Origin: Pseudobdellovibrionaceae bacterium
GTDB lineage: Bacteria > Bdellovibrionota > Bdellovibrionia > Bdellovibrionales > Bdellovibrionaceae
Reading direction: 5' to 3'
Length of the DNA stretch: 47,333 nt
Assembly: GCA_019637875.1 (NCBI GenBank)
Contig: JAHBUW010000021.1
Location: 1-47,333, forward strand
The translations under genes were made by a program, and so were the position numbers. The notes under the pieces were generated by a model. That model was not told where the DNA came from and made no database searches. It was given only the letters and a program-made list of their open reading frames with translations. Below, one piece after another: positions 11,224-38,157 of the stretch; positions within the stretch are counted from its first letter, which is position 1, and every line of letters begins with the position of its first letter.

Positions 11224-11382
11224 CCATCGAAATCGCTCCCTAATTTCCTCAATTTCTGAAGAAAGTTGTAAGCGCCACTTTTGCAGGCGAATAGAAAATC
11301 TTCGCTTTTTAGCGTCGATCACATTGAAGTGAGCGACTGAAATTTTGATCGAGATCGTTAAACCGGATCAATGGAGGATTCG

Positions 11383-13980
11383 ATGGAACGAGTCGTTGTC
11401 GTAGGAAAACCCAAATCCAAAGGGAAAGCCTCGAATAAACCTCTGCCTGCTCCGAGGGGCGCGGACGTCGGCCCTTCGCTGAGTGAATCCTCGCGCCTCA
11501 GCTCCCCAGACCTGCGCACCCAACTTCGCGATTTACATAAAGTCGTCAAGGCCGTTCGTAACGGTGATTTCTCTGTACGGATGAGTGTCGAGTCGGAGGG
11601 GATCGTCGCCGAGATCGGCGAGGTCTTAAACGACATCATCGAACACAACGAAAATATGGCCAATGAATTCGTCCGCGTTCGGAGCATCATCGGTCTGGAA
11701 GGCCGCATGACCGAGCGGGTGAATATGGGGTCGGTCAAGGGATCGTGGGCGACTTCGGTCGACTCGGTGAACTTGATGATCTCGGATCTGGCGCACCCGA
11801 CAACGGAAGTCGCGCGGGTCATCACCTCCGTCGCCAAAGGGGATTTGTCGCAAAAGATGTATCTCGAAGTCGACTCGCGCCCCGTGAAAGGGGAGTTTTT
11901 GCGGATCGGAACCACGGTGAACGCCATGGTCGATCAGCTGAACTCGTTCGCGTCGGAGGTGACCCGGGTCGCGAAAGAGGTCGGAACCGAAGGAAAGCTC
12001 GGCGGTCAGGCGAACGTCGGCGGCGTGAGCGGGGTTTGGAAAGATCTGACGGATAACGTGAACGTCCTTGCGGGAAACTTGACGGATCAGGTCCGGAATA
12101 TCGCGAAGGTCACCACCGCCGTTGCGAAAGGCGACTTGTCGCAAAAAATTACGGTCGACGCCCGCGGCGAGATCATGGAACTCAAAAACACGATCAACAC
12201 GATGGTCGATCAGCTTTCGTCCTTCGCTTCGGAGGTCACGCGGGTCGCGAAGGACGTCGGTACCGAAGGAAAGCTTGGCGGTCAGGCGAACGTCAAAGGG
12301 GTCAGCGGCGTCTGGAAAGATCTGACCGATAACGTGAACGGTCTGGCCGATAACTTGACGGCGCAGGTTCGTAACATCGCGAAGGTGACGACCGCGGTCG
12401 CGACGGGCGACTTGTCGCAGAAAATTACGGTCGACGCCCGTGGCGAGATCATGGAACTGAAAAATACGATCAACACGATGGTCGATCAGCTGCGGTCCTT
12501 CGCGGCCGAGGTCACCCGGGTCGCGAAAGAGGTCGGTACCGAAGGACGACTGGGCGGACAGGCCGACGTCAAAGGGGTCAGCGGAACTTGGAAAGATCTG
12601 ACGGATAACGTGAATGGTCTTGCGAACAACTTGACCGCGCAGGTTCGTAACATCGCGAAGGTGACCACCGCGGTCGCGAACGGCGACTTGTCACAAAAGA
12701 TCACGGTCGACGCCAAGGGCGAGATCTTGGAGCTCAAAGATACCATCAACACGATGGTCGATACGCTGCGCTCGTTCGCCGCGGAGGTGACCCGGGTGGC
12801 GAAGGAAGTCGGTACCGAAGGGAAACTCGGCGGTCAGGCGGACGTCAAAGGCGTCAGCGGAACGTGGAAGGACTTGACCGATAACGTGAACGCCATGGCC
12901 TCGAACTTGACGGTCCAGCTTCGTGACGTCTCGAAGGTCGCGACCGCCATCGCGACGGGGGACTTGTCCCAGAAGATCACGGTCGACGTGAAGGGCGAGA
13001 TCCTGCAGATCAAAGACGTGATCAACAAGATGGTCGATCAGCTGGGGTCTTTCGCGGCCGAGGTCACGCGGGTCGCGAAGGAAGTCGGTACCGAAGGAAA
13101 GCTCGGCGGTCAGGCGGACGTCAAAGGCGTCAGCGGAACGTGGAAAGATCTGACGGACAACGTGAACGTCCTTGCCGGAAACTTGACGGATCAGGTCCGG
13201 AACATCGCGAAAGTGACGACGGCGGTCGCAAAGGGCGACTTGTCGCAAAAGATCACGGTCGACGCCCGGGGCGAGATCTTCGAGCTGAAGAATACGATCA
13301 ACGTCATGGTCGATCAGCTGAACTCGTTCGCCGCCGAGGTCACGCGGGTCGCGAAGGAAGTCGGAACCGAAGGAAAGCTCGGCGGTCAGGCGGACGTGAA
13401 GGGCGTCAGCGGAACGTGGAAGGACTTGACCGATAACGTGAATCAGCTGGCCGGAAACTTGACGAGTCAGGTCCGGAACATCGCGAAGGTCACGACGGCC
13501 GTCGCGAACGGGGACTTGTCGCAGAAGATCACGGTCGACGCGAAAGGCGAGATCTCGGAACTTAAAAATACGATCAACGTCATGGTCGATCAGCTGAACT
13601 CGTTCGCCGCGGAGGTCACGCGGGTCGCGAAAGAGGTCGGTACCGAAGGAAAACTCGGAGGCCAGGCGGAAGTCCGCGGGGTCAGCGGAGTCTGGAAGGA
13701 TTTGACCGATAACGTGAACTTCATGGCCCTCAACCTGACGAAACAGGTCCGGGGGATCGTGAAGGTCGTCACCGCGGTCGCCAACGGCGACCTCAACCAG
13801 AAGTTCGTCATCGAAGCGAAAGGGGAGGTCGCGGCCCTCGCCGAAACGATCAACTCCATGACCGATACGCTCAGGACTTTCGCGGATCAGGTGACCTCGG
13901 TCGCCCGCGAGGTCGGTATCGAAGGAAAGCTCGGCGGTCAGGCGAAGGTTCCGGGGGCGCGGGAACGTGGAAGGATTTGA
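11383..13980 (+). CDS. Poly-HAMP hybrid histidine kinase, N-terminal part (frameshifted)
   Basis: This is the sensor half of one large kinase gene. After about 50 residues it is an uninterrupted chain of HAMP modules. Modules marked '[12 protein letters not shown]' alternate with modules marked '[11 protein letters not shown]', about 46 residues each. I count roughly 19 HAMP modules in the whole protein, with no transmembrane helix, so it is probably cytoplasmic. The layout resembles fungal Nik1/group III osmosensing kinases and their bacterial relatives. The start at 11383 is preferred over the ATG at 11371 because GGAGG sits five bases before it. The frame ends at a TGA (13978-13980) after '[12 protein letters not shown]', where the HAMP pattern demands '[11 protein letters not shown]'. 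That continuation is present in the +2 frame, so a single base is missing near the G5 run at 13953-13957. The intact gene would span 11383-16001, about 1539 aa. Confidence 0.85.
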
Positions 13981-21275: not shown

Positions 21276-21498
21276 GGAAGAACCCCCAAAGTAGCGCGAG
21301 CCTCATTGCTCGCAAGCGCTGTCCATTACACGAGCTGTGCCGAGCGTGGGGAGAAAATGGCGGGGGTCTGGGCGCGGAGCGCGGGACAAGACCGCCGATG
21401 GCGCGGTGCTCAAGTGTGACAGAATGTCCCGCCAGCCGCGCGCGTCAGCGGCCCGCAGGGGACCTGCATCGGTCGCGCTTTTCTGGCAAACTGGAGTG

Positions 21499-22494
21499 AT
21501 GCTGAACTTGGCCAAGGAAGGACTTTATTGCCGAGCGGGGGACTTCTTCATCGACCCGCGACGGGGCGTCAAAGACGCCGTGATTACGCATGCCCATGCG
21601 GATCACGCCCGTCGGGGCAGCGAGACCTACCATGTGGTCAAAAGCGGGGTGGATCTTCTGCTCGCGCGCCTGGGTCGCAAGATCAACGTGCGCGCCTACG
21701 ACTACGGCGAAGTTTTCGAGCTCGGCGCGGCCCGCGTATCCTTTCATCCGGCGGGACATATTCTGGGTTCGTGTCAGGTGCGCATCGAGGTCGGCGGCGA
21801 AGTGTGGGTGGCCTCGGGGGACTATAAACGTGAAGCCGATCCGACCTGCGAGCCCTTCGAGGTGGTGAAGTGCGACGTCTTCGTCACCGAGGCGACCTTC
21901 GGGACGCCCGCTTACCGCTGGCCGAAACAGGCCGACCTCGGCGGGCAGATCATGGAGTGGTGGCGCCGCAACGCCGCGCGCGGCGAGAACTCGGTGCTCT
22001 TCGGTTACTCTTTGGGAAAAACCCAGCGCATCCTCGGTGAATTGAGCGATTTGTCCGAGCGTCCGATCTACTGTCACGACGCCGCGGCCGAAATCAATCT
22101 CGCCTACCGACGTCAGGGCATCGCCCTTGCCGAGACGATCTGTTTGAGCGGCGTGGACGAGTCCACGCGTTTGGAAGGAGAACTCATCCTCGCGCCCCAG
22201 GCTTTTCTGAAATCCCCGCAGGCCGTGATTTTAGGGAATCGCTTCCGGACCGCGTTCGCCTCGGGCTGGATGGCGGGGGGACGCGCCTTCGGATACGATA
22301 CGGGCTTCGTGATGAGCGATCACGCGGATTGGGACGATCTGGTCCGCACCTGCGTCGAGACGGGGGCGAAACGCATCTACGTTCAGCACCGGGGGGCGGG
22401 CGCGCTCGTCCGTCATCTGCGAGAGCTCGGGATCAAGGCCTATCCCGAAGAGGAATTGACTCTCCAAAACCCCGATCAGATGGCGTTTTTCTGA
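21499..22494 (+). CDS. SNM1/Artemis-like DNA exonuclease (ligase-associated exonuclease family)
   Basis: This 331-aa metallo-beta-lactamase / beta-CASP protein has 'THAHADHARRG' (HxHxDH) near residue 31. Further ligands are likely in 'FHPAGHILGSCQ', 'ASGDYKRE' and the 'SDHADWDDL' near the C-terminus. It matches the bacterial ligase-associated DNA exonuclease group, often encoded beside an ATP-dependent ligase. Start at 21499 follows GGAG by a few bases and gives the family's usual N-terminus; the frame is open further upstream but that part does not look coding. Its stop overlaps the next gene's ATG by one base, so the two proteins are probably made together. Trimming of broken DNA ends is the likely role. 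Confidence 0.9.
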   Translation: MLNLAKEGLYCRAGDFFIDPRRGVKDAVITHAHADHARRGSETYHVVKSGVDLLLARLGRKINVRAYDYGEVFELGAARVSFHPAGHILGSCQVRIEVGGEVWVASGDYKREADPTCEPFEVVKCDVFVTEATFGTPAYRWPKQADLGGQIMEWWRRNAARGENSVLFGYSLGKTQRILGELSDLSERPIYCHDAAAEINLAYRRQGIALAETICLSGVDESTRLEGELILAPQAFLKSPQAVILGNRFRTAFASGWMAGGRAFGYDTGFVMSDHADWDDLVRTCVETGAKRIYVQHRGAGALVRHLRELGIKAYPEEELTLQNPDQMAFF

Positions 22495-24902
22495 TGAATA
22501 AGAAAATCATCCATCTTCCCATCACCGATTTCGCGATCCCGGCGCCCCGTCGCGGCTCGATCGACGCGCATTCTGGGCTCGGCCGCGCCTCGCAGGCGGG
22601 CATCGAGATCCATCAAAAAGTACAGCTCGAGCGCGCCCAGGATTTTTCGGATTACGAAGCCGAAGTCGCGGTCGAACACGAATTCGAAACCGAAGACTAT
22701 ATTTTTCGCGTCGGCGGACGGATGGACGGGGTTTTTCGCTCCGAGAAATCTTTTAAGATCGAAGAGATCAAAACGAGCTTCAACATCTTCGATCTCATGC
22801 ACAAGCTGCGCGAGTCGCAGGACGATCATCCTTACTGTTTGCAACTTCTGACCTACGGCTACATCCAGTTCCAAGCGAGTGGTCGCTTTCCGGAATTGCG
22901 TTTGCATCTGGTTTCGACCCGCAATGGGGAAACGGCGGATCTGAGCCTGCGTTTGAACTTGGACGAATACGAAGCCTGGTTGAAGCGGCGCCTGGGCGAG
23001 CTGGTCGATGAGGCGCATGCGGAGGAAAAACGCATCGAGCGTCGCAAGAAAGCGGCGGCGGCCTTTCAGTTTCCGTTCGAGCGTCCGCGGCCCGGGCAGG
23101 TCGAGCTGATCCAGCAGATCGAAGAGGGGATGAAGGACGCCCACCCCATGATGTTCCAGGCCCCGACGGGCCTCGGGAAAACCATCGGGGTCATGTATCC
23201 GACTTTGAAAGAGGCCTTGGCGCGCGGACAAAAGCTCATCTACATCACGCCCAAAAATAGCCAGCACGCGGTGGCCGAGGACGCGGTCACGCGGCTGCAA
23301 GAAGAGGGCGCGAAACTGAAGTCGCTGACGATCACGGCGAAGTCGAAGATGTGCATGAAGAATGAACCGCTGTGCAATCCGGACTATTGCGAGTTCGCGC
23401 GGGATCACTACACAAAAGTCAGCGAACATCGTTTGGTCGAAGAACTGCGCAAGAAACGCAAACTCACGGCCAAGACGTTCAAAAAGATCGCCGAGTCCCA
23501 TACCGTTTGTCCGTTCGAGCTTCAGCTCGACGCGGCCGCCGACGTGGACACGGTGATCTGCGATTACAATTACGTCTTTGCGCCGCGCTCGGCCTTCGGG
23601 CGTCTGGCGAAAGAGGGGCTGGTCATCAAGGGAAAGCCCAACCTCGTGATCGACGAGGCCCACAACCTGCCGGGCCGCGCGATCGACATGTACTCGCCGC
23701 AGCTTTCGGTTTTCGCGCTTTTGAAGTTGCGCGAAGAGGGCGGCAAACTTCCCGGAAAGTTCGCGGGCGAATTTTTGGCGATTCTGAACAGCTGCATCGC
23801 CGTGGTGCAAAGCTGCGGAAACCCCGGCCAAGCCAAGGCGCACGAGATCGAACCACCCATCGAGAGTTTCATGTTGCAAGACGTGGAGGTCCGGCAGTTC
23901 CTGTCCGCTTATCTGGCCAGCGACATCGAGATCCCCGCGCGGGACCCGGTGCTCAGCCTCGCGTTCAGCTGGTCCGAGTTCACCGGCGCTTTGGAGTACG
24001 TCATGCGCGGCAATGAAGCGGAGGGCGCGCCCCGTCGCTTCTTCACGACCTATACGCCCAATCCCGGAACGGTGAAGATCACCTGCTGCGACGCCTCGGC
24101 CTTTTTGCGCGAGTCCTACGACGACTTCGCCCAGGTCGTGGCGTTCTCGGCGACGCTGAAGCCCTTCGAGTACTACGCGAAGCTTTCGGGCCTGGAGGGG
24201 GAAGGTCTCAAGACCGCCGAGTTCGTCTCGCCGTTCGATCCCGTCCGGCGCAAACTTCTGGTCATCCCGCAGATCTCGAGCAAGTACAGCGAGCGTGAAC
24301 GGAATTATCCGCGCATCGCCGAAACCATCGCGCGGGTGGTGAAGCTGAAAAAGGGGAACTACGTCGCGTTCTTCCCGAGCTTCGATTTCATGGAGCGTAC
24401 GCTTGCGCAGTTCGAAGCGCCCGAAGGCTTCCGCTTGCTACGTCAAGAGCGCTTCATGAAACGGGACGACGTGGACGAGGTCCTCGAACGTCTGGCCGAT
24501 CCGGCCTTCGATCATCTGCTCTTCGCGGTGCAGGGGGGCGTTTTCTCGGAGGGCGTGGATTATCCGGGACGCATGCTGATCGGCGCTTTCGTGGTGGGGC
24601 CGCCGCTCCCGAGCTTCGATCTGGAGCGCGAAAAGATGCGCGAGTACTACGAGAAAAACTATCAGGCGGGTTTCGACTACGCCTACACCTATCCCGCCAT
24701 GGCGAAGGCCGTACAGTCGGCGGGCCGGGTGATCCGCTCCGAGACGGACCGGGGCCTCATCGTCTTGATGGACAATCGGTTTCTAGATGCGAGCTACTCG
24801 AAGTCGATGCCGTCGGATTGGTTTCGCACGCATCCGTCGGAGCTCGTTTCGAACCGCATCCTGGCCGAGATCCGCGAGTTCTGGGAGGGGGAGCACCCCT
24901 AG
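22494..24902 (+). CDS. PD-(D/E)XK nuclease fused to XPD/DinG-type Fe-S helicase
   Basis: This 802-aa fusion has a RecB-like nuclease domain at residues 25-170 with D78 ('GRMDGV') and E91-I-K93. It is followed by a superfamily 2 Rad3/XPD-type helicase. Walker A is 223-230 ('APTGLGKT') and the DEAH box is 387-390. The four iron-sulphur cysteines are C287, C294, C299 and C339. The arch and motif VI region 'KAVQSAGRVIRSETDRG' is intact. XPD/DinG helicases unwind 5' to 3' on DNA. With an attached nuclease, the arrangement recalls Dna2-like end resection. It is translationally coupled to the SNM1-like exonuclease before it, and its stop overlaps that of the convergent DUF6178-like gene by four bases. 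Domain calls are firm; the pathway is inferred. Confidence 0.9.
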   Translation: MNKKIIHLPITDFAIPAPRRGSIDAHSGLGRASQAGIEIHQKVQLERAQDFSDYEAEVAVEHEFETEDYIFRVGGRMDGVFRSEKSFKIEEIKTSFNIFDLMHKLRESQDDHPYCLQLLTYGYIQFQASGRFPELRLHLVSTRNGETADLSLRLNLDEYEAWLKRRLGELVDEAHAEEKRIERRKKAAAAFQFPFERPRPGQVELIQQIEEGMKDAHPMMFQAPTGLGKTIGVMYPTLKEALARGQKLIYITPKNSQHAVAEDAVTRLQEEGAKLKSLTITAKSKMCMKNEPLCNPDYCEFARDHYTKVSEHRLVEELRKKRKLTAKTFKKIAESHTVCPFELQLDAAADVDTVICDYNYVFAPRSAFGRLAKEGLVIKGKPNLVIDEAHNLPGRAIDMYSPQLSVFALLKLREEGGKLPGKFAGEFLAILNSCIAVVQSCGNPGQAKAHEIEPPIESFMLQDVEVRQFLSAYLASDIEIPARDPVLSLAFSWSEFTGALEYVMRGNEAEGAPRRFFTTYTPNPGTVKITCCDASAFLRESYDDFAQVVAFSATLKPFEYYAKLSGLEGEGLKTAEFVSPFDPVRRKLLVIPQISSKYSERERNYPRIAETIARVVKLKKGNYVAFFPSFDFMERTLAQFEAPEGFRLLRQERFMKRDDVDEVLERLADPAFDHLLFAVQGGVFSEGVDYPGRMLIGAFVVGPPLPSFDLEREKMREYYEKNYQAGFDYAYTYPAMAKAVQSAGRVIRSETDRGLIVLMDNRFLDASYSKSMPSDWFRTHPSELVSNRILAEIREFWEGEHP

Positions 24903-26700: not shown

Positions 26701-27570
26701 CTACACCTGCCAGCCCGGAACCCAAGCCGTAGTTCGACCACCGACCTCTTCGTGTCGGATCAGAAGCCCTTTCGAGGTGCGGGCGTTTTTCTTTTTCCCC
26801 CAGCGTTCGTGAAACAGCCAGGTCTTCGGGAAGCGTTCGTAATCCGCATTCACGGCCACCGCTTTTTTGACGACCTTCAGCACCGCGCGGTGAAGAGCCG
26901 TGATCTGCTTCGGGGTCAAGCGCGAGGCCAGGTGATGGGGACTCAAGCGCGCTTGGAATAAAATCTCGTCCGCGAGCCAGTTGCCCACGCCCGCGAACAG
27001 CGTTTGATCCAGCAGCACCGCTTTGATCGCCTTTTTCCGGCGAGCGAGTTTTTCGCCCAGAACCTTCGCCGTCGGAAAGTCGATCAACGGATCAAAACCC
27101 AACGCCTTGATGCGGGGATGTTCCCACGGATCCTCCGTGAGCCACATCCGCCCGAACCGGCGTGGATCCAGAAACGCGAATTCGAAACCTTTGTCGCATT
27201 TCAAGATCAAACGCGCGAACCACAGCCGCTCGCGCAGGTCCTTGTCGCCCTCGGACCAGAGCTTGGCGCCGCCCCAAACTTTTTCGTGTCCACGCGTGCG
27301 CGCGCTTGGATCCAGCAGCGCGATGTTGCCGCTCATACCCAGATGAAAGATCGGCCAGGGTTTTTGATCGAGTTCGAGCCAGAAGTATTTGCCCTTGCGG
27401 CCGGTACCGGTCACGCGGCGGCCCTTCAGCGCGCGGCGCACGGCTTAGGGTTTCACGAAGGCGAAAAGCCAACGGTCCTTCGCATCCAGGACGAGCTCTT
27501 GAATGCGGTGACCCTTCATACGTTTTTGGACTTGGCGACGGACGGCTTCGACTTCGGCGAGTTCAGGCAT
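26701..27570 (-). pseudogene. Fpg/Nei-family DNA glycosylase interrupted by an in-frame stop
   Basis: Formamidopyrimidine/endonuclease VIII glycosylases excise oxidised bases using the N-terminal proline. The ATG at 27570 gives 'MPELAEVEAVRRQV', with catalytic P2, E3 and E6, and the frame matches the family. Codon 42 (27447-27445) is TAA after 'FAFVKP'. The same frame continues with 'RRALKGRRVTGTGRKGKYFW', carrying the catalytic Lys loop, to the end at 26701. One base change (for example GAA to TAA) explains it. A protein started at GTG 27441 would lack Pro and Glu and could not work as a glycosylase. The C-terminal finger has no Cys ('HEEVGGRTTAWVPGWQ' where CPxC is usual), a zincless finger as in NEIL1-like enzymes. 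Full length would be 289 aa. Confidence 0.82.
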
Positions 27571-27773: not shown

Positions 27774-29096
27774 TTAAAGGCCTTGGGGCCAGGTTTCGGG
27801 AATTTCTTTGCGGTCCACGCCATGGGGGATCGGCACGAGGGCGCTGGTCCGGTCCACAAACACGAACGTGTCGTAGCACCGGCGAAGCTCGGTGGGAACG
27901 TAGTTTCCGAAGCGTTCGGTCGCGGGATTGAAGACGACGCCGATCGCGCGGTGATCCACTTTCTGGTCGAAAATGTCCGGCGCCTTCCGTAGCGGCAGAT
28001 AAAACTGCGGGCTGCCGATCGCGTCGGCAACCGAGTGCAGGATGTCCTCGAGCGTGCCGGGCCTTGCGGCCGGGATCTTCATCACTTGGGTTTGGCCACC
28101 CCACGCGGCACCCGCGATGACTTCTCCTTTGAAGGTACCGAAGCCGACCAATCGGACTTCGTCTTCGCCCCACTTCATGCGCGCCAGGCCCCCGATGTTC
28201 ACGAGCCCCTCTTCCCGCATGTCGGTCGCGCGGTGATCGCCGATGTGGGTGTTGTGCGCCCAGACCACGGCGCGGGCGTCCTCCCCGCGGTGCTCGAGAA
28301 TCTGCTCGAGCGTCTCCAGCATGTGACGGTCACGCACGTTCCATGAGTCGTCGCCGCCGTGGACCATGGTGCGGTAGTAGTCTTCCGCGTTCGCCACGAT
28401 GCGCGCGTTTTGCCGCGCGCTGAAAAGCCGGTGGGACGAATCGGCATCGGGTTGGACGCGTAGCCTCAGGAGATCGCGCAAGATCGAGGTCACCTCGTCC
28501 GCACAGCCCTCGGGATACGGGATCAGACTTTTCGCGTAGGTGCGTTCATCTTTTTGAAAGGGCGCGAAGCAGTCATAACGTCCACGTACGGTCGCAGCCA
28601 GAAAGGGATCGAAGCCCCGTAAGTATTTGAGCGTTTCGTCGATGGATTCAAACAGCGAGTAGACGTCCAGCCCATAAAAACCCACGGGGCGCGCGCTGCG
28701 TTCGTTGTGCGCGCGTAGCCACTGCGTGAATTTGGCGACTTCGGTGTTGGCCCACATCCAGGTCGGCCAGCGCATGAATCCGCGCAAAGGGTCCGCGCCG
28801 ACGGGATCGCGACCTTGGACATAGTCGTCGATACGCTGACAGGCGGGCCAGTCGCCTTCCACGGCCACGATGTTGAAACCGTGATTCTGAATGAGCTCTT
28901 GGGTTAAACGGGCGCGAAGGGCGTAGAACTCCTGAGTTCCGTGGGTGGCCTCGCCCAGCATGACGACGCGGGCCTCGGCGAGTTCGCGGGCGACGGGGGA
29001 CAGATCCTGCTTCTCGCGCCAAGGACGGGCGAGTTTGACCGCGGCGGCGGCGAGATCGAGTTCGAAATGTTTCGCATCGGCCTCGCGGTATTTCAT
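27774..29096 (-). CDS. Erythromycin esterase family protein
   Basis: This 440-aa soluble protein has the family's 'MLGEATHGTQEFYALRARLT' (catalytic-type E-x-x-H) and 'VAVEGDWPACQRIDDYVQG' near residues 50-95. 'VVWAHNTHIGDH' near residue 280 supplies the second His. Full length for the family. Most chromosomal members are not macrolide esterases and have unknown substrates; several are encoded with phosphoribosyltransferase-hydrolase fusions, as here. Six bases separate it from the upstream exported gene, so it is in the operon that starts at 30871. Confidence 0.9.
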   Translation of the reverse strand: MKYREADAKHFELDLAAAAVKLARPWREKQDLSPVARELAEARVVMLGEATHGTQEFYALRARLTQELIQNHGFNIVAVEGDWPACQRIDDYVQGRDPVGADPLRGFMRWPTWMWANTEVAKFTQWLRAHNERSARPVGFYGLDVYSLFESIDETLKYLRGFDPFLAATVRGRYDCFAPFQKDERTYAKSLIPYPEGCADEVTSILRDLLRLRVQPDADSSHRLFSARQNARIVANAEDYYRTMVHGGDDSWNVRDRHMLETLEQILEHRGEDARAVVWAHNTHIGDHRATDMREEGLVNIGGLARMKWGEDEVRLVGFGTFKGEVIAGAAWGGQTQVMKIPAARPGTLEDILHSVADAIGSPQFYLPLRKAPDIFDQKVDHRAIGVVFNPATERFGNYVPTELRRCYDTFVFVDRTSALVPIPHGVDRKEIPETWPQGL

Positions 29097-29102
29097 GGCA
29101 TC

Positions 29103-29534
29103 CTACTCGCGGCGGTTGATCTCATCCGCGATCAGAAAGGCTTTCACTTCGCGAAAGCCGGTCGTGATCTGCGGAGTGAGGGTCCAAGTCCCGTCTTTGG
29201 TGACGTTGGACACGGGTTTAAGAAGCAGCGTTCCGGTGATCGTGAGCTTCGTATTTTTCGGGATGGTGGTCAGATCGGTGGGATCTTCGGGCGAGCCGAC
29301 CACGACGATCTCGTCGCTGATGATGCCGCCGCTGGAAAGGACGAAAGACTTCTTGTCGATATTCTCTTCGAGTTTGCCGTCGATCTGGATGCGGCGCCCG
29401 GAGTACTTGGATAGATCATCATTCAACGTTTCCACATCGGGAACGCGCATCGCCTCAACCGCCGGTAACTTCAGTGGCGTCACCAGCGGCATGCAGAGCC
29501 CCATCACGATGAGCGCGGTCCTCCGCCATTTCAT
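29103..29534 (-). CDS. Exported OB-fold-like protein
   Basis: This 143-aa protein starts at an ATG overlapping the upstream stop by four bases and has a signal peptide 'MKWRRTALIVMGLCMPLVTP'. The mature part, 'YSGRRIQIDGKLEENIDKKS' through 'DEIVVVGSPED' and 'NTKLTITGTLLLKP', has the strand order of a small OB-fold such as those in periplasmic stress proteins. No catalytic residues are visible. Its job is unknown; cotranscription with the fusion and esterase-family genes suggests a shared stress role. Confidence 0.7.
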   Translation of the reverse strand: MKWRRTALIVMGLCMPLVTPLKLPAVEAMRVPDVETLNDDLSKYSGRRIQIDGKLEENIDKKSFVLSSGGIISDEIVVVGSPEDPTDLTTIPKNTKLTITGTLLLKPVSNVTKDGTWTLTPQITTGFREVKAFLIADEINRRE

Positions 29535-30871
29535 GCGGGCCCTCCCGCGTGCAGCTCGGATACGAAGCTGGAAACGGGTTCGGCGTGTCGGCGATCGCGG
29601 GCCGGACTTAGCAAGTGACGCTCGACCCAACGCAAGCTCTCGCGCACGATCTCTTCCATTTGCAGATCGGTATCGATGAAGGCGCCCGCCTCGGGGATGG
29701 GGTGAAGTTGACGTTCGCCGTGCATTTGGATGAAGGACTCTTCGTGTAAATGTAAAACCGCGCGGTCTTTGGCGCCCACCAGAAAGAGAACCGGGACGCG
29801 CAGTTGCGGAAGCACCTCGGTCACCAGATCGGGACGTCCCGAACGGCTGACGAGGGCGTCGATCCGGTGGCCGGGCTGGGCCGCGACCATCAGCGCCGCC
29901 GCCGTGCCGGTGTGGGTCCCGTACAAGGCGAGCGGGATGTCCGCAAGTCGGGGGTCTTTGCGTGCCCAGGCGAGGCACGCCCGCAGGCGGTGCGCGAGAA
30001 GTCCGATCTCGAAGCGATTCAAATCGTCGTCGGCCTCTTCGGGAGTCATCAGGTCCACCAGCAAGGTCGCGAAGCCCTGACGATTGAAGGCCTCGGCGAT
30101 GTATTGATTCTTCGGACTTTGCCGACCGTGCCCGCTTCCGTGCGCGAAAACGACGAGGCCGCGGGGTTTCATGGGAAGACCGAGGGTCGCGTTCAGTTTG
30201 ACGCCGTCCTCGAAGACTTCGATCTCGCGGGGTGAAACGCGAAAAAATCCGCCGACCTCGGCATCCGAGACTTGGGCGAAGTTGTCGTAGTAGTAGCTGA
30301 CGGCGCCGAACTCCTCGGGCGTAAGTAAGGCGCGCACCTCGACGCCTTCGTCTTCAAGGCGCTGGACCGCCTGCGGACTCGCGACGGGAGTCGCCACGAC
30401 GATCTGGCGCACCTGCGCGCGCCGTAAAAATTCGATGGCGGCCAGCATGGTGGCGCCGGTCGCGATGCCGTCGTCCACGACGATGACGTCACGGCCGCGC
30501 AGCGGAACCGCCGGGCGACCGTTCGTGTAGTGCGCGCGCATTTCCCGCAGGCGCGTCGCGATTTTCGCGGCCTGTTCGGCGAGATCTTCCTCGATCATGC
30601 CGTTCTGCAAAGCGCCCGAGCCCAGAATGACGTCCCCGTTTTCCGTGACGGAACCCAGGGCGAACTCCGGATGTTGGGGATGACCGATTTTTTTGACGAG
30701 CACGAGGTCGAGATCGGCCTCTAGACGGTCGGCGATGATTTTCGCCATCGGCATCGCCCCACGGGGAATGCCCAGGACGACGGGTTTCAGCTCGCGCAGG
30801 TCTTCGAGCTGATCGGCAAGTTGTTGGGCGGCCACCGTTCGATTTTGAAAGCGGTTCTGAAAACGGTCCAC
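29531..30871 (-). CDS. Phosphoribosyltransferase / alpha-beta hydrolase fusion
   Basis: This is a 446-aa fusion. Residues 1-215 are a type I phosphoribosyltransferase with the PRPP loop 'VIVVDDGIATGATMLAA' (DDGIATGAT at 133-141) and a pyrophosphate-loop-like 'VKKIGHPQHPE'. Residues 225-430 are a dienelactone-hydrolase-like fold with 'VVFAHGSGHGRQSPKN' and a C-terminal His. The nucleophile elbow, normally G-x-S-x-G, reads G318-T-H320-T-G322, so the expected Ser is His and the hydrolase half may be inactive. The start is GTG at 30871 with AAGGAG eight bases upstream. First gene of a four-gene unit running to 27623. The fusion is known from other bacteria but its substrate is not. Confidence 0.88.
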   Translation of the reverse strand: MDRFQNRFQNRTVAAQQLADQLEDLRELKPVVLGIPRGAMPMAKIIADRLEADLDLVLVKKIGHPQHPEFALGSVTENGDVILGSGALQNGMIEEDLAEQAAKIATRLREMRAHYTNGRPAVPLRGRDVIVVDDGIATGATMLAAIEFLRRAQVRQIVVATPVASPQAVQRLEDEGVEVRALLTPEEFGAVSYYYDNFAQVSDAEVGGFFRVSPREIEVFEDGVKLNATLGLPMKPRGLVVFAHGSGHGRQSPKNQYIAEAFNRQGFATLLVDLMTPEEADDDLNRFEIGLLAHRLRACLAWARKDPRLADIPLALYGTHTGTAAALMVAAQPGHRIDALVSRSGRPDLVTEVLPQLRVPVLFLVGAKDRAVLHLHEESFIQMHGERQLHPIPEAGAFIDTDLQMEEIVRESLRWVERHLLSPARDRRHAEPVSSFVSELHAGGPA

Positions 30872-34845: not shown

Positions 34846-35745
34846 ATGGCGAAGAAAAAAACGACGAAAAAAGCGGCTAAAAAAACGCGGTCAAGAAAAA
34901 CGACGAAGTCAGGAAAACCCGAACGTGGGCTATGGAGCGGCGCGATCAGCTTCGGCTTGGTGAACGTCCCGGTCCGGGTGGTCTCGGCCAAAGAGCAGCC
35001 CGATCTGCATTTCACGATGCTCGATCCGTCGAATCTGTCCCCGGTCGGGTACAAATACTACAACAAAGCGACGGGCGAAGAGATCTCCCGCGCGAAAACG
35101 GTGAAGGCCTTTGAACACGAAAAAGGCCGCTACGTCATCATGACCGAAGCGGACTTCAAACGCGCCAACCCCAAGGCGACCCAAACGATCGACATCGAAA
35201 GCTTCGCGAAGCTCGACGAAATCGATCCCGTTTTCTTCGAGCGCGCTTATTATCTGCTGCCGAACAAAGGAGGGCAGAAGGGATATAAGCTCTTGGTCGA
35301 TGCGCTTCGTAACACCGGCAAGGTGGCCATTTCGAAAATCGTTCTGCATACGAAGCAACACCTGGCCGCGCTGATTCCCCGCGGGGACTTTCTGCTTTTG
35401 GAGCTTCTGCATTTCGCCGAGGACGTGAAAGAGCTTTCCGAGTTGGGAGATTGGCGGGAAGAAGTGCCGGTTTCGAAGAGCGTTTCCAAAGAGGTCGCCA
35501 TGGCCGAGAGCTTGATCGAAGACATGACCGAACCTTGGAAGCCCAAGGAGTTTCACAATACCTACCGCGAGGACATCATGAAGGTGGTGAAAGCGAAGGT
35601 GAAATCCGGCAAGGCGACCGAAATCAACGAAGATTATGAAGAGTCGGGAAAAGAGGAAACCGGCCAGGTGTTGGATTTGATGCCGCTCCTTCGCAAATCC
35701 CTCGAATCCAAACGCGGCGGCAAAGCGAAACGCGCCGCCCACTAA
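34846..35745 (+). CDS. ku: Ku, non-homologous end-joining protein
   Basis: This 299-aa bacterial Ku homodimer subunit encircles DNA ends and recruits LigD. After a Lys-rich N-terminal tail (about 22 residues, unusual in Ku, where basic tails are normally C-terminal) comes 'GLWSGAISFGLVNVPVRVVS' and 'LHFTMLD', the Ku core start. 'ERAYYLLPNKGGQKGYKLLV' and 'ISKIVLHTKQHLAALIP' follow. The C-terminal 40 residues are also basic. RBS GGAGG lies in the end of the yetF remnant. ligD starts nine bases after it. Confidence 0.96.
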   Translation: MAKKKTTKKAAKKTRSRKTTKSGKPERGLWSGAISFGLVNVPVRVVSAKEQPDLHFTMLDPSNLSPVGYKYYNKATGEEISRAKTVKAFEHEKGRYVIMTEADFKRANPKATQTIDIESFAKLDEIDPVFFERAYYLLPNKGGQKGYKLLVDALRNTGKVAISKIVLHTKQHLAALIPRGDFLLLELLHFAEDVKELSELGDWREEVPVSKSVSKEVAMAESLIEDMTEPWKPKEFHNTYREDIMKVVKAKVKSGKATEINEDYEESGKEETGQVLDLMPLLRKSLESKRGGKAKRAAH

Positions 35746-35754
35746 GGAGCGTCC

Positions 35755-38157
35755 ATGAGTCTTCAAGAGTACCGGCGCAAAAGAAATTTTCGCCGCACGA
35801 CCGAGCCCACGCGCAGCCGCGCGTCCAAAGGGGGGCCGATCTTCGTCGTGCAAGAGCACCACGCTTCGCATTTGCATTACGATTTCCGCCTTGAAGCGTT
35901 CGGCACCTTGAAGAGTTGGGCGGTGCCGAAAGGGCCCTCCACCGCGCCGGGCGACAAACGGCTGGCCGTGGAGGTCGAGGACCATCCGATCAGTTACGCA
36001 AGCTTTCACGGCCGCATTCCGGAGGGGGAATACGGCGCGGGAGTGGTCAAGATCTGGGATAAGGGCGTGTGGGTCCCGCCGCCGCATTTGAAGGAGATGC
36101 TCGCGAAAGGGCATTTGGAGTTCGAGCTGAAAGGGAAAAAACTCAAAGGGCGGTGGATGCTCGTCCGCACAAAAAAGGGGGCCGCGAAACCCCAATGGCT
36201 ATTGATCAAACGGAGCGACGTCCCGGCGCCGACGCGCACCGCCCGGGAACGAAAGAAAACGGCGGGGGAAAAGGCGGCTTTTCCGACGGTCGCGGAGACG
36301 TCCCCGCAGCTTGCGCAGCTGACCGAAACCGTGCCCCCGGGGGCCGACTGGATCTTCGAGACGAAATTCGACGGTTACCGTACGCTGGTGCATAAACGCA
36401 ACGGGCGTTCCCTCAAGTTTTTCACGCGCTCGGGTCTGGATTGGTCCGCTCGGTACGCGCAGCTCGAGGGCGCATTCCGCAAACTGAAGGCTAAAAATTT
36501 CGTCATCGACGGCGAAATCGTGAGCGAGGATGAAAAGGGCCGCTCGAGTTTTTCGTTGCTGCAAGAGTCGCTCGAGAGCGGCGCGAAGACGGGTCTTAAA
36601 TTTCAGGCCTTCGATCTGCTGTACCTTGACGGCCGCGATCTGCGGGGCGAACCGCTCGAAGTTCGCAAACAGATTTTGAAGGATCTTCTGCGGGAGGCGC
36701 CCGCCGGGAAATTGCGCTTCAGCGAGCACGTGCGCGGGCAAGGGGAAGACGCGCTCCGCGCCGCCTGCCGGGCGGGTCTGGAGGGGATCATCGCCAAAGA
36801 CCGGGGAGCGCGCTACCGCGCGGGACGTTCGGACCTTTGGCGCAAAATCAAATGCACGAATCGGCAGGAGGTCGTCATCGGCGGCTTCACGGACCCCCGG
36901 GGAAGTCGTGCGGGGTTGGGTGCGCTATTGGTCGGCGTGCGGGAGGCGGGGGCCTTGAAATACGCCGGGAAGGTCGGCACCGGTTTCGATGATCGTTTGC
37001 TGAGGGACCTGCGAGCGCGCCTTGAGAGCATCGGGGCGCCGGAGTCTCCATTCAAAGGGGGCGCGCCCCCGCGCGGCGCCCACTGGGTCAAGCCCCGCAT
37101 GGTCGCCGAAGTGGAGTTCACCGAATGGACGCGCGACGGGCACATGCGCCACCCGGTCTTCGTCGGATTGCGCGAGGACAAATCCGCGACCGAGGTCGTC
37201 CACGAAAGACCCGTGGCCGCGAAGGAGCGGAAAAAGAAGCGGGGCGCGGTTCCGCCCGCGGCCGCGGGGTTCCGGATCACGCATCCCGAACGGGTCGTTT
37301 ACCCTGCGGACAACTTCACGAAACTGGACGTCGCGAACTATTACAAAAGCGTGGCGCCTTGGCTTCTGCCGCACATCGCGGACCGTCCGCTCGCACTCGT
37401 TCGCTGCCCGGCGCGCGCGGCCGCCCAGTGTTTTTTCCAGAAGCACGTCGACATCGAACGGATGAACGAGCTGCGCGAAACGATGATTCGGGATCAGAAG
37501 ACCGTATCCACTGACAGCGCGGACGGACTGCTCCAACTCGCGCAGTGGGGCGTGCTCGAGCTCCACGCGTGGCAAAACCACAATGATTCGCCGGAGCGCC
37601 CCGACCAGTTCATCATCGATCTGGATCCGGACGAAGGCGTGGCCTTCGCCCGCGTGAAAGAGACCGCGTTCCGGATGCGCGCGCTTTTGCGAGAACTCGA
37701 TCTGGAGTCTTTCGTGAAAGTGACGGGCGGGAAGGGGCTGCACGTCCACGTTCCGATCCGTCCGGACTATTCTTGGGATCAGATTAAAAACTTCGCGAAA
37801 AGTTTGGGGCAGCAGCTGGCCGAGGAGCACCCGGGCGAATACACGACGAAGATGTCCAAAGAGGGGCGCAAGGGGAAGATCTTCATCGACTATCTACGAA
37901 ACGGTTTCGGTGCGACGGCCGTCGCGCCTTACTCGCTGCGCTCCAAAGAGCATGCGACGGTCGCGGTGCCGGTGACCTGGGAAGAGCTGAAGGCCATGCG
38001 GCGGCTGAAAGTCTTCAGCCCGAAAGAGACCTTGAAGCGACTGGCATCCATGAAGAAAGAGGTCTGGCCCGGCTATTTCCAGCGGCGCCAAGAGATCGCG
38101 CTGCTTAAGACGCCTTCCCGCCGGCCGCGATCTTCGCGGTCAGGCGCTGGACGTTGA
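35755..38157 (+). CDS. ligD: ATP-dependent DNA ligase D (PE-LIG-POL order)
   Basis: This 800-aa NHEJ enzyme has three domains. The 3'-phosphoesterase (1-150) shows 'HHASHLHYDFRLE' and 'SFHGRIPEGEYGAG'. The ligase (190-490) has nucleophile K204 in 'ETKFDGYRT' and 'LEGIIAKDRGARYRAGRSD'. The primase-polymerase (515-790) has 'HPERVVYP', 'IIDLDPDEG' and 'TGGKGLHVHVPI'. The order matches the Pseudomonas type rather than the mycobacterial one. It forms an operon with ku. The last 53 bases run into the convergent HD-GYP gene, giving a basic tail 'TPSRRPRSSRSGAGR' that is probably not conserved. Confidence 0.96.
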   Translation: MSLQEYRRKRNFRRTTEPTRSRASKGGPIFVVQEHHASHLHYDFRLEAFGTLKSWAVPKGPSTAPGDKRLAVEVEDHPISYASFHGRIPEGEYGAGVVKIWDKGVWVPPPHLKEMLAKGHLEFELKGKKLKGRWMLVRTKKGAAKPQWLLIKRSDVPAPTRTARERKKTAGEKAAFPTVAETSPQLAQLTETVPPGADWIFETKFDGYRTLVHKRNGRSLKFFTRSGLDWSARYAQLEGAFRKLKAKNFVIDGEIVSEDEKGRSSFSLLQESLESGAKTGLKFQAFDLLYLDGRDLRGEPLEVRKQILKDLLREAPAGKLRFSEHVRGQGEDALRAACRAGLEGIIAKDRGARYRAGRSDLWRKIKCTNRQEVVIGGFTDPRGSRAGLGALLVGVREAGALKYAGKVGTGFDDRLLRDLRARLESIGAPESPFKGGAPPRGAHWVKPRMVAEVEFTEWTRDGHMRHPVFVGLREDKSATEVVHERPVAAKERKKKRGAVPPAAAGFRITHPERVVYPADNFTKLDVANYYKSVAPWLLPHIADRPLALVRCPARAAAQCFFQKHVDIERMNELRETMIRDQKTVSTDSADGLLQLAQWGVLELHAWQNHNDSPERPDQFIIDLDPDEGVAFARVKETAFRMRALLRELDLESFVKVTGGKGLHVHVPIRPDYSWDQIKNFAKSLGQQLAEEHPGEYTTKMSKEGRKGKIFIDYLRNGFGATAVAPYSLRSKEHATVAVPVTWEELKAMRRLKVFSPKETLKRLASMKKEVWPGYFQRRQEIALLKTPSRRPRSSRSGAGR

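Follow-up and report, generated by a model that had tools for sequence, protein, structure and literature searches.

A conserved exo–EndoDinG gene pair in Bdellovibrionota as a candidate two-gene strand-excision repair operon

Results

Organization of the exo–EndoDinG locus

The window, that is, the whole 47,333-nucleotide stretch of Pseudobdellovibrionaceae contig JAHBUW010000021.1 analyzed here, carries on its forward strand a beta-CASP nuclease gene (exo; 21499..22494, 331 aa), belonging to the EndoDinG-associated branch of TIGR04122, followed by a gene for EndoDinG (22494..24902, 802 aa), an XPD/DinG-type Fe-S helicase with an N-terminal PD-(D/E)XK nuclease. The exo gene starts with ATG at 21499 and ends with TGA at 22492-22494, and EndoDinG starts with ATG at 22494, its stop codon ending at 24902; the two thus meet in a TGATG stop/start overlap (22492..22496, forward strand) with one shared base, an arrangement pointing to translational coupling. 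An in-frame GTG is present upstream of exo at 21337, and alignment showed that homologues start at 21499 instead. Most other copies of the pair also have a 1- or 4-base exo/EndoDinG overlap. The one-base overlap, the coordinates and the strand given in an earlier sequence-only reading of this DNA were all correct. Comparison of pair loci showed that the genes flanking the pair are common to close relatives only, so that the conserved unit is, as far as can be judged from sequence, two genes only. A larger conserved operon was ruled out since the flanks vary between copies.

The surrounding genes include a DNA/RNA non-specific endonuclease (PF01223; 18972-20111) a short way upstream of the pair, on the opposite strand, and an Fpg/Nei-type glycosylase (26701-27441, reverse strand) matching its profile from about position 44, such that its N-terminus may be missing or its start may lie upstream. 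Also on the reverse strand (27774-30871), an erythromycin-esterase family protein is encoded beside a phosphoribosyltransferase-alpha/beta hydrolase fusion. On the forward strand (11371-13980), an 869-aa protein with at least seven HAMP repeats, in which no kinase domain was found, precedes two hybrid kinases, a HAMP-GAF histidine kinase and a PAS kinase, in a poly-HAMP signaling operon.

The helicase-nuclease EndoDinG

EndoDinG matched the rad3/DinG/YoaA profiles and, in Pfam, Helicase_C_2 and DEAD_2. Its N-terminal nuclease domain gave no Pfam detection and is evident from the full-length match to Finegoldia magna DinG (PDB 9KQH; whole-chain sequence match, E 2.5e-82) together with invariant residues. 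Specifically, the nuclease motifs H40, E57, D78, E91-x-K93 and Q117xxxY121 (22611..22856), the Walker A motif APTGLGKT (residues 223–230; 23160..23183) and the Fe-S cysteines C287, C294, C299 and C339 (23352..23510) are invariant across 41 sequences, and the DEAH box (residues 387–390; 23652..23663) is conserved, all on the forward strand. The nuclease-helicase fusion put forward in the sequence-only reading is therefore borne out by the helicase profile matches, the full-length 9KQH match and the invariant catalytic residues. An AlphaFold2 model of EndoDinG (pLDDT 91) gave 9KQH as its best fold match (Z 31.5 over 728 residues, 29% identity). Among solved structures this Finegoldia magna protein is the closest, and the match extends to its nuclease domain; it comes from a Firmicute, unlike the EndoDinG of the window, and no paper on 9KQH was found in the literature searched. 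In its helicase core EndoDinG is similar to XPD, one such structure being XPD blocked by an interstrand crosslink (8REV).

The name EndoDinG comes from a 2025 review, which gives it to a subgroup of DinG represented by Bdellovibrio bacteriovorus HD100 and characterized by an N-terminal nuclease of the PD-(D/E)XK type bearing the residues H, E, D, E and K; the review mentions endonuclease activity of B. bacteriovorus EndoDinG as unpublished data and predicts a role in repair or replication (PMC11981726). The window protein fits this description (H40/E57/D78/E91/K93, a four-Cys Fe-S domain and an XPD-type helicase) and shares these features with the HD100 protein, which is from the same bacterial family. 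A search of the main text of the review for neighboring genes and lactamases found no partner described for EndoDinG (PMC11981726), whereas in the window its gene is translationally coupled with that of a beta-CASP nuclease. In Bdellovibrio, unlike in the window, EndoDinG adjoins a DEDDh-GIY-YIG protein.

The beta-CASP nuclease

The exo product scored 383 bits against the TIGR04122 profile (curated cutoff 325) and had no Pfam match at E 0.001. Its metal-binding motif HAHADH (residues 31–36; 21589..21606, forward strand), located by alignment, did not vary among the pair-type and Lhr-type exos checked, a single solo sequence having a gap at this place, and the conserved metal ligands H31, H33, D35, H36, H87 and D108 are all kept. 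With both nucleases and the helicase appearing intact by sequence, the earlier claim that unwinding and two nucleases are combined in one pair is sustained, and the data support exo and EndoDinG as a conserved functional pair, in which a single helicase goes with two nucleases that both look intact.

The AlphaFold2 model of exo (pLDDT 90) has a beta-CASP fold (Z about 28). Among the matches listed, the nearest solved relatives in both sequence and fold were of the CPSF73, TTHA0252 and aCPSF types; Artemis, as a chain of the DNA-PK complex 7SGL, ranked 41 in the fold search, and SNM1/Artemis were absent among the listed structure matches, which still leaves room for kinship. RNA-cutting beta-CASP enzymes have His at motif C and the DNA-type enzymes (SNM1/Pso2/Artemis) have Val. 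In exo, the putative motif C, assigned from the sequence pattern, is His297 (22387..22389, forward strand), and His occupies the corresponding position of 26/26 pair-type exos and of 7/7 Lhr-type ones. The description of exo as “SNM1-like” therefore holds for the beta-CASP fold, which exo has in common with SNM1/Pso2/Artemis, but is otherwise a loose label, CPSF73 and TTHA0252 being nearer among the matches listed and the putative motif C being His, not Val. This His and the RNA-cutting nearest relatives suggest that the substrate of exo may not be DNA.

Conservation of the pair

Across 291 genomes of the phylum, EndoDinG was present in 66 and TIGR04122 in 51, with both in 44. Adjacency in exo–helicase order recurred in 27 of the 291, confirming that the pair itself is not a product of chance. 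Pair-type exo occurred in 38 genomes, 34 of which carry EndoDinG, also where the two are unlinked: EndoDinG accompanied unlinked pair-type exo in 7/11 genomes as against 32/253 of the remaining genomes (p=2e-4, kinship not accounted for). Exo-linked EndoDinG was also found in records labeled Nitrosomonas supralitoralis, Elusimicrobia and Akkermansia, the latter two being MAG labels. No description of an exo–EndoDinG pair was found in the literature searched, in keeping with the earlier claim that the pair is undescribed, although both proteins belong to named families.

Exchange of the second nuclease

The genes beside EndoDinG were compared at 80 named loci, some of them cut by contig ends. 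Exo lay upstream at 29 loci, a DEDDh-GIY-YIG protein was adjacent at 18, neither was present at 33 and both at none, a mutual exclusion with a Fisher value of 1.4e-4 (kinship not accounted for). The DEDDh-GIY-YIG partner, found in Bdellovibrio, Legionella, Melainabacteria and others, is a fusion nuclease, encoded in the three named groups directly downstream of EndoDinG (for example L139 8325-9899 and L071 5138-6709), and resembles PRK07883, the UvrC N-terminus and Cho, which points to strand excision. Each of the three contexts tends to cluster on the EndoDinG tree, with several changes from one to another. EndoDinG is solo in Geobacteraceae, and in the ten genomes first listed for this family neither TIGR04122 nor a partner in trans was found, so that exo would be accessory and not essential. 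EndoDinG thus looks like the core component, and we infer that the second nuclease is an exchangeable accessory.

Relation to the Lhr-associated cluster

A second TIGR04122 type, scoring mostly 450–487 bits, was never adjacent to EndoDinG, and all of its neighborhoods that were read consisted of the known PdeM-Lhr-ligase-Exo cluster, whole or truncated by a contig end. In a maximum-likelihood exo tree the Lhr-type sequences formed one clade (100/99), with the pair-type sequences outside. No Lhr (TIGR04121), PdeM (TIGR04123) or TIGR04120 ligase neighbors were found in the window or at the pair loci, and the genome of the window gave no Lhr match. The ligase-associated cluster (TIGR04120 ligase, TIGR04121 Lhr, TIGR04122 and TIGR04123 PdeM) has its exonuclease family in common with the pair and likewise combines a helicase, an endonuclease and a beta-CASP nuclease; in contrast, it also has Lhr, PdeM and a dedicated ligase, none of which is found beside the pair. 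The odds are about even that the pair corresponds to the Lhr repair module in a more compact form, lacking the ligase, and serves to excise damaged strands.

Discussion

Ku (34846..35745, TIGR02772, 281 bits) and LigD (35755..38157, TIGR02776, 650 bits) are both encoded on the forward strand of the window and are not part of the module. They lie 9.9 kb downstream of the helicase gene, close to the 10 kb previously noted, and the combination of unwinding and two nucleases within one operon had led to the proposal that the pair may resect or clean up double-strand breaks for end joining by Ku-LigD. Repair after desiccation or predation-related damage, raised in the same reading, is a purely hypothetical role; records labeled Nitrosomonas, Elusimicrobia and Akkermansia have the pair as well. 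The proposed survey of co-occurrence gave a mixed outcome. Ku was present in 46/291 genomes and the LigD_N domain in 59/291; LigD_N was associated with the pair (12/27 pair genomes against 47/264 others, p=0.004), and Ku occurred in 8/27 against 38/264 (p=0.05), leaving 19 of the 27 pair genomes without Ku. However, the association failed on specificity: among genomes with EndoDinG, Ku was rarer where the pair is present (8/27) than where it is not (26/39; p=0.005, kinship not accounted for), so that the Ku signal follows EndoDinG-bearing lineages and not the pair. No Ku or LigD was found in the fetched flanks of any other operon copy, and the distance from pair to Ku exceeded 1 Mb in both genomes having them on the same contig (G242 and G236). 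Some proximity was seen for unlinked pair-type exos, one of which, at locus L060, is 7 kb from a LigD, and another, a long-branch TIGR04122 exonuclease at locus L054 (5375-7088), stands head-to-head with a lone LigD_N (3'-phosphoesterase) domain. These loci give a weak hint of a Ku-LigD link; proximity of this kind would arise by chance, for one gene, at about 0.6% per genome, and the cases were noticed after the fact. An AddAB-like helicase-nuclease pair is encoded elsewhere in the genome of the window (L160 5508-11284), by which replacement of a missing resection machine was ruled out. AddAB/RecBCD combine a helicase with a PD-(D/E)XK nuclease, as does EndoDinG, but their motor is of superfamily 1, unlike that of EndoDinG, and the AddAB-like pair is separate in this genome. 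Given the co-occurrence, the flanks and the distances, a specific functional link to Ku-LigD was rejected, and a role in feeding end joining is improbable.

The kinship of exo keeps alive a different role, in which EndoDinG would unwind RNA-DNA hybrids (R-loops) where transcription and replication conflict, leaving the released RNA to be degraded by the beta-CASP enzyme. The closest solved relatives of exo (CPSF73, TTHA0252, aCPSF1, INTS11 and Cas14) all act on RNA, as the motif-C His of the pair-type enzymes would also suggest; CasDinG, a relative of DinG, unwinds RNA/DNA hybrids (PMC10450177) and Listeria DinG acts on rRNA (PMC12774634). On the other hand, the curated description of TIGR04122 is that of a DNA damage response exonuclease, the sister exo branch is encoded together with Lhr, PdeM and a DNA ligase, and the other partner occupying the same slot is UvrC/Cho-like, which together make R-loop processing rather unlikely. 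Defense against phages or plasmids by a mobile helicase-nuclease pair degrading invading DNA would be in line with the patchy occurrence and changing flanks of the pair, with the strong match of EndoDinG to the PADLOC model “typeIV_DinG” and with the presence of DinG-like proteins in type IV CRISPR and of Hna as a related defense helicase (PMC13381803). Yet the PADLOC match reflects general helicase homology, covering residues 185–782 and leaving out the nuclease domain, exo had no PADLOC hit, no CRISPR or defense gene was recognized among the annotated neighbors in the window, and coupled retention extends across many lineages, so that defense appears very improbable. Much the same low probability is given to two repair genes brought together by chance or history without a shared function: EndoDinG is often alone, and at locus L049 the exo next to an intact EndoDinG is internally deleted and only 170 aa long, but this is hard to reconcile with 27 adjacent pairs and co-retention when unlinked.

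The reading preferred here, with a probability of roughly 0.5, is that exo and EndoDinG form a conserved two-gene repair operon that would excise damaged strands. It is favored by the adjacency in 27 genomes, the co-retention when unlinked, the separation from the Lhr branch and the alternation of partners. Excision is preferred over break resection because of the UvrC/Cho-like alternative partner and the resemblance to XPD; for resection, an AddAB-like pair is present. Counting against excision are the RNA-cutting nearest relatives of exo and its motif-C His, the occurrence of solo EndoDinG in Geobacteraceae and the lack of LexA-box enrichment: a search upstream of 53 genes with six patterns gave 1, 1, 0, 0, 0 and 0 hits, with 0.34, 0.28, 0.14, 0.14, 0.08 and 0.04 expected, and SOS regulation of the pair was rejected on this basis.

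For such an excision operon, a plausible course of events is that EndoDinG loads onto single-stranded DNA at a lesion, gap or fork, where its XPD-type Fe-S motor would unwind, probably 5'-to-3', and its PD-(D/E)XK domain would cut one strand. The co-translated beta-CASP nuclease, possibly in a physical complex with EndoDinG, might then trim the displaced or nicked strand, with the housekeeping polymerase and ligase presumed to refill and seal. EndoDinG, as a fused helicase and endonuclease, together with exo would in this way parallel Lhr, PdeM and Exo in a system having no dedicated ligase. More tentatively, EndoDinG could be the core of an undescribed bacterial pathway of strand excision (or R-loop processing) in which the second nuclease can be swapped, being a beta-CASP enzyme in certain lineages, DEDDh-GIY-YIG in others and absent in Geobacteraceae.

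EndoDinG, newly named and with its cellular role unreported in the literature found, thereby gains a conserved partner and a testable role. The exonuclease family of the Lhr damage-response cluster also serves with a different helicase, and the way partners alternate within one operon is suggestive of a repair machine built from modules.
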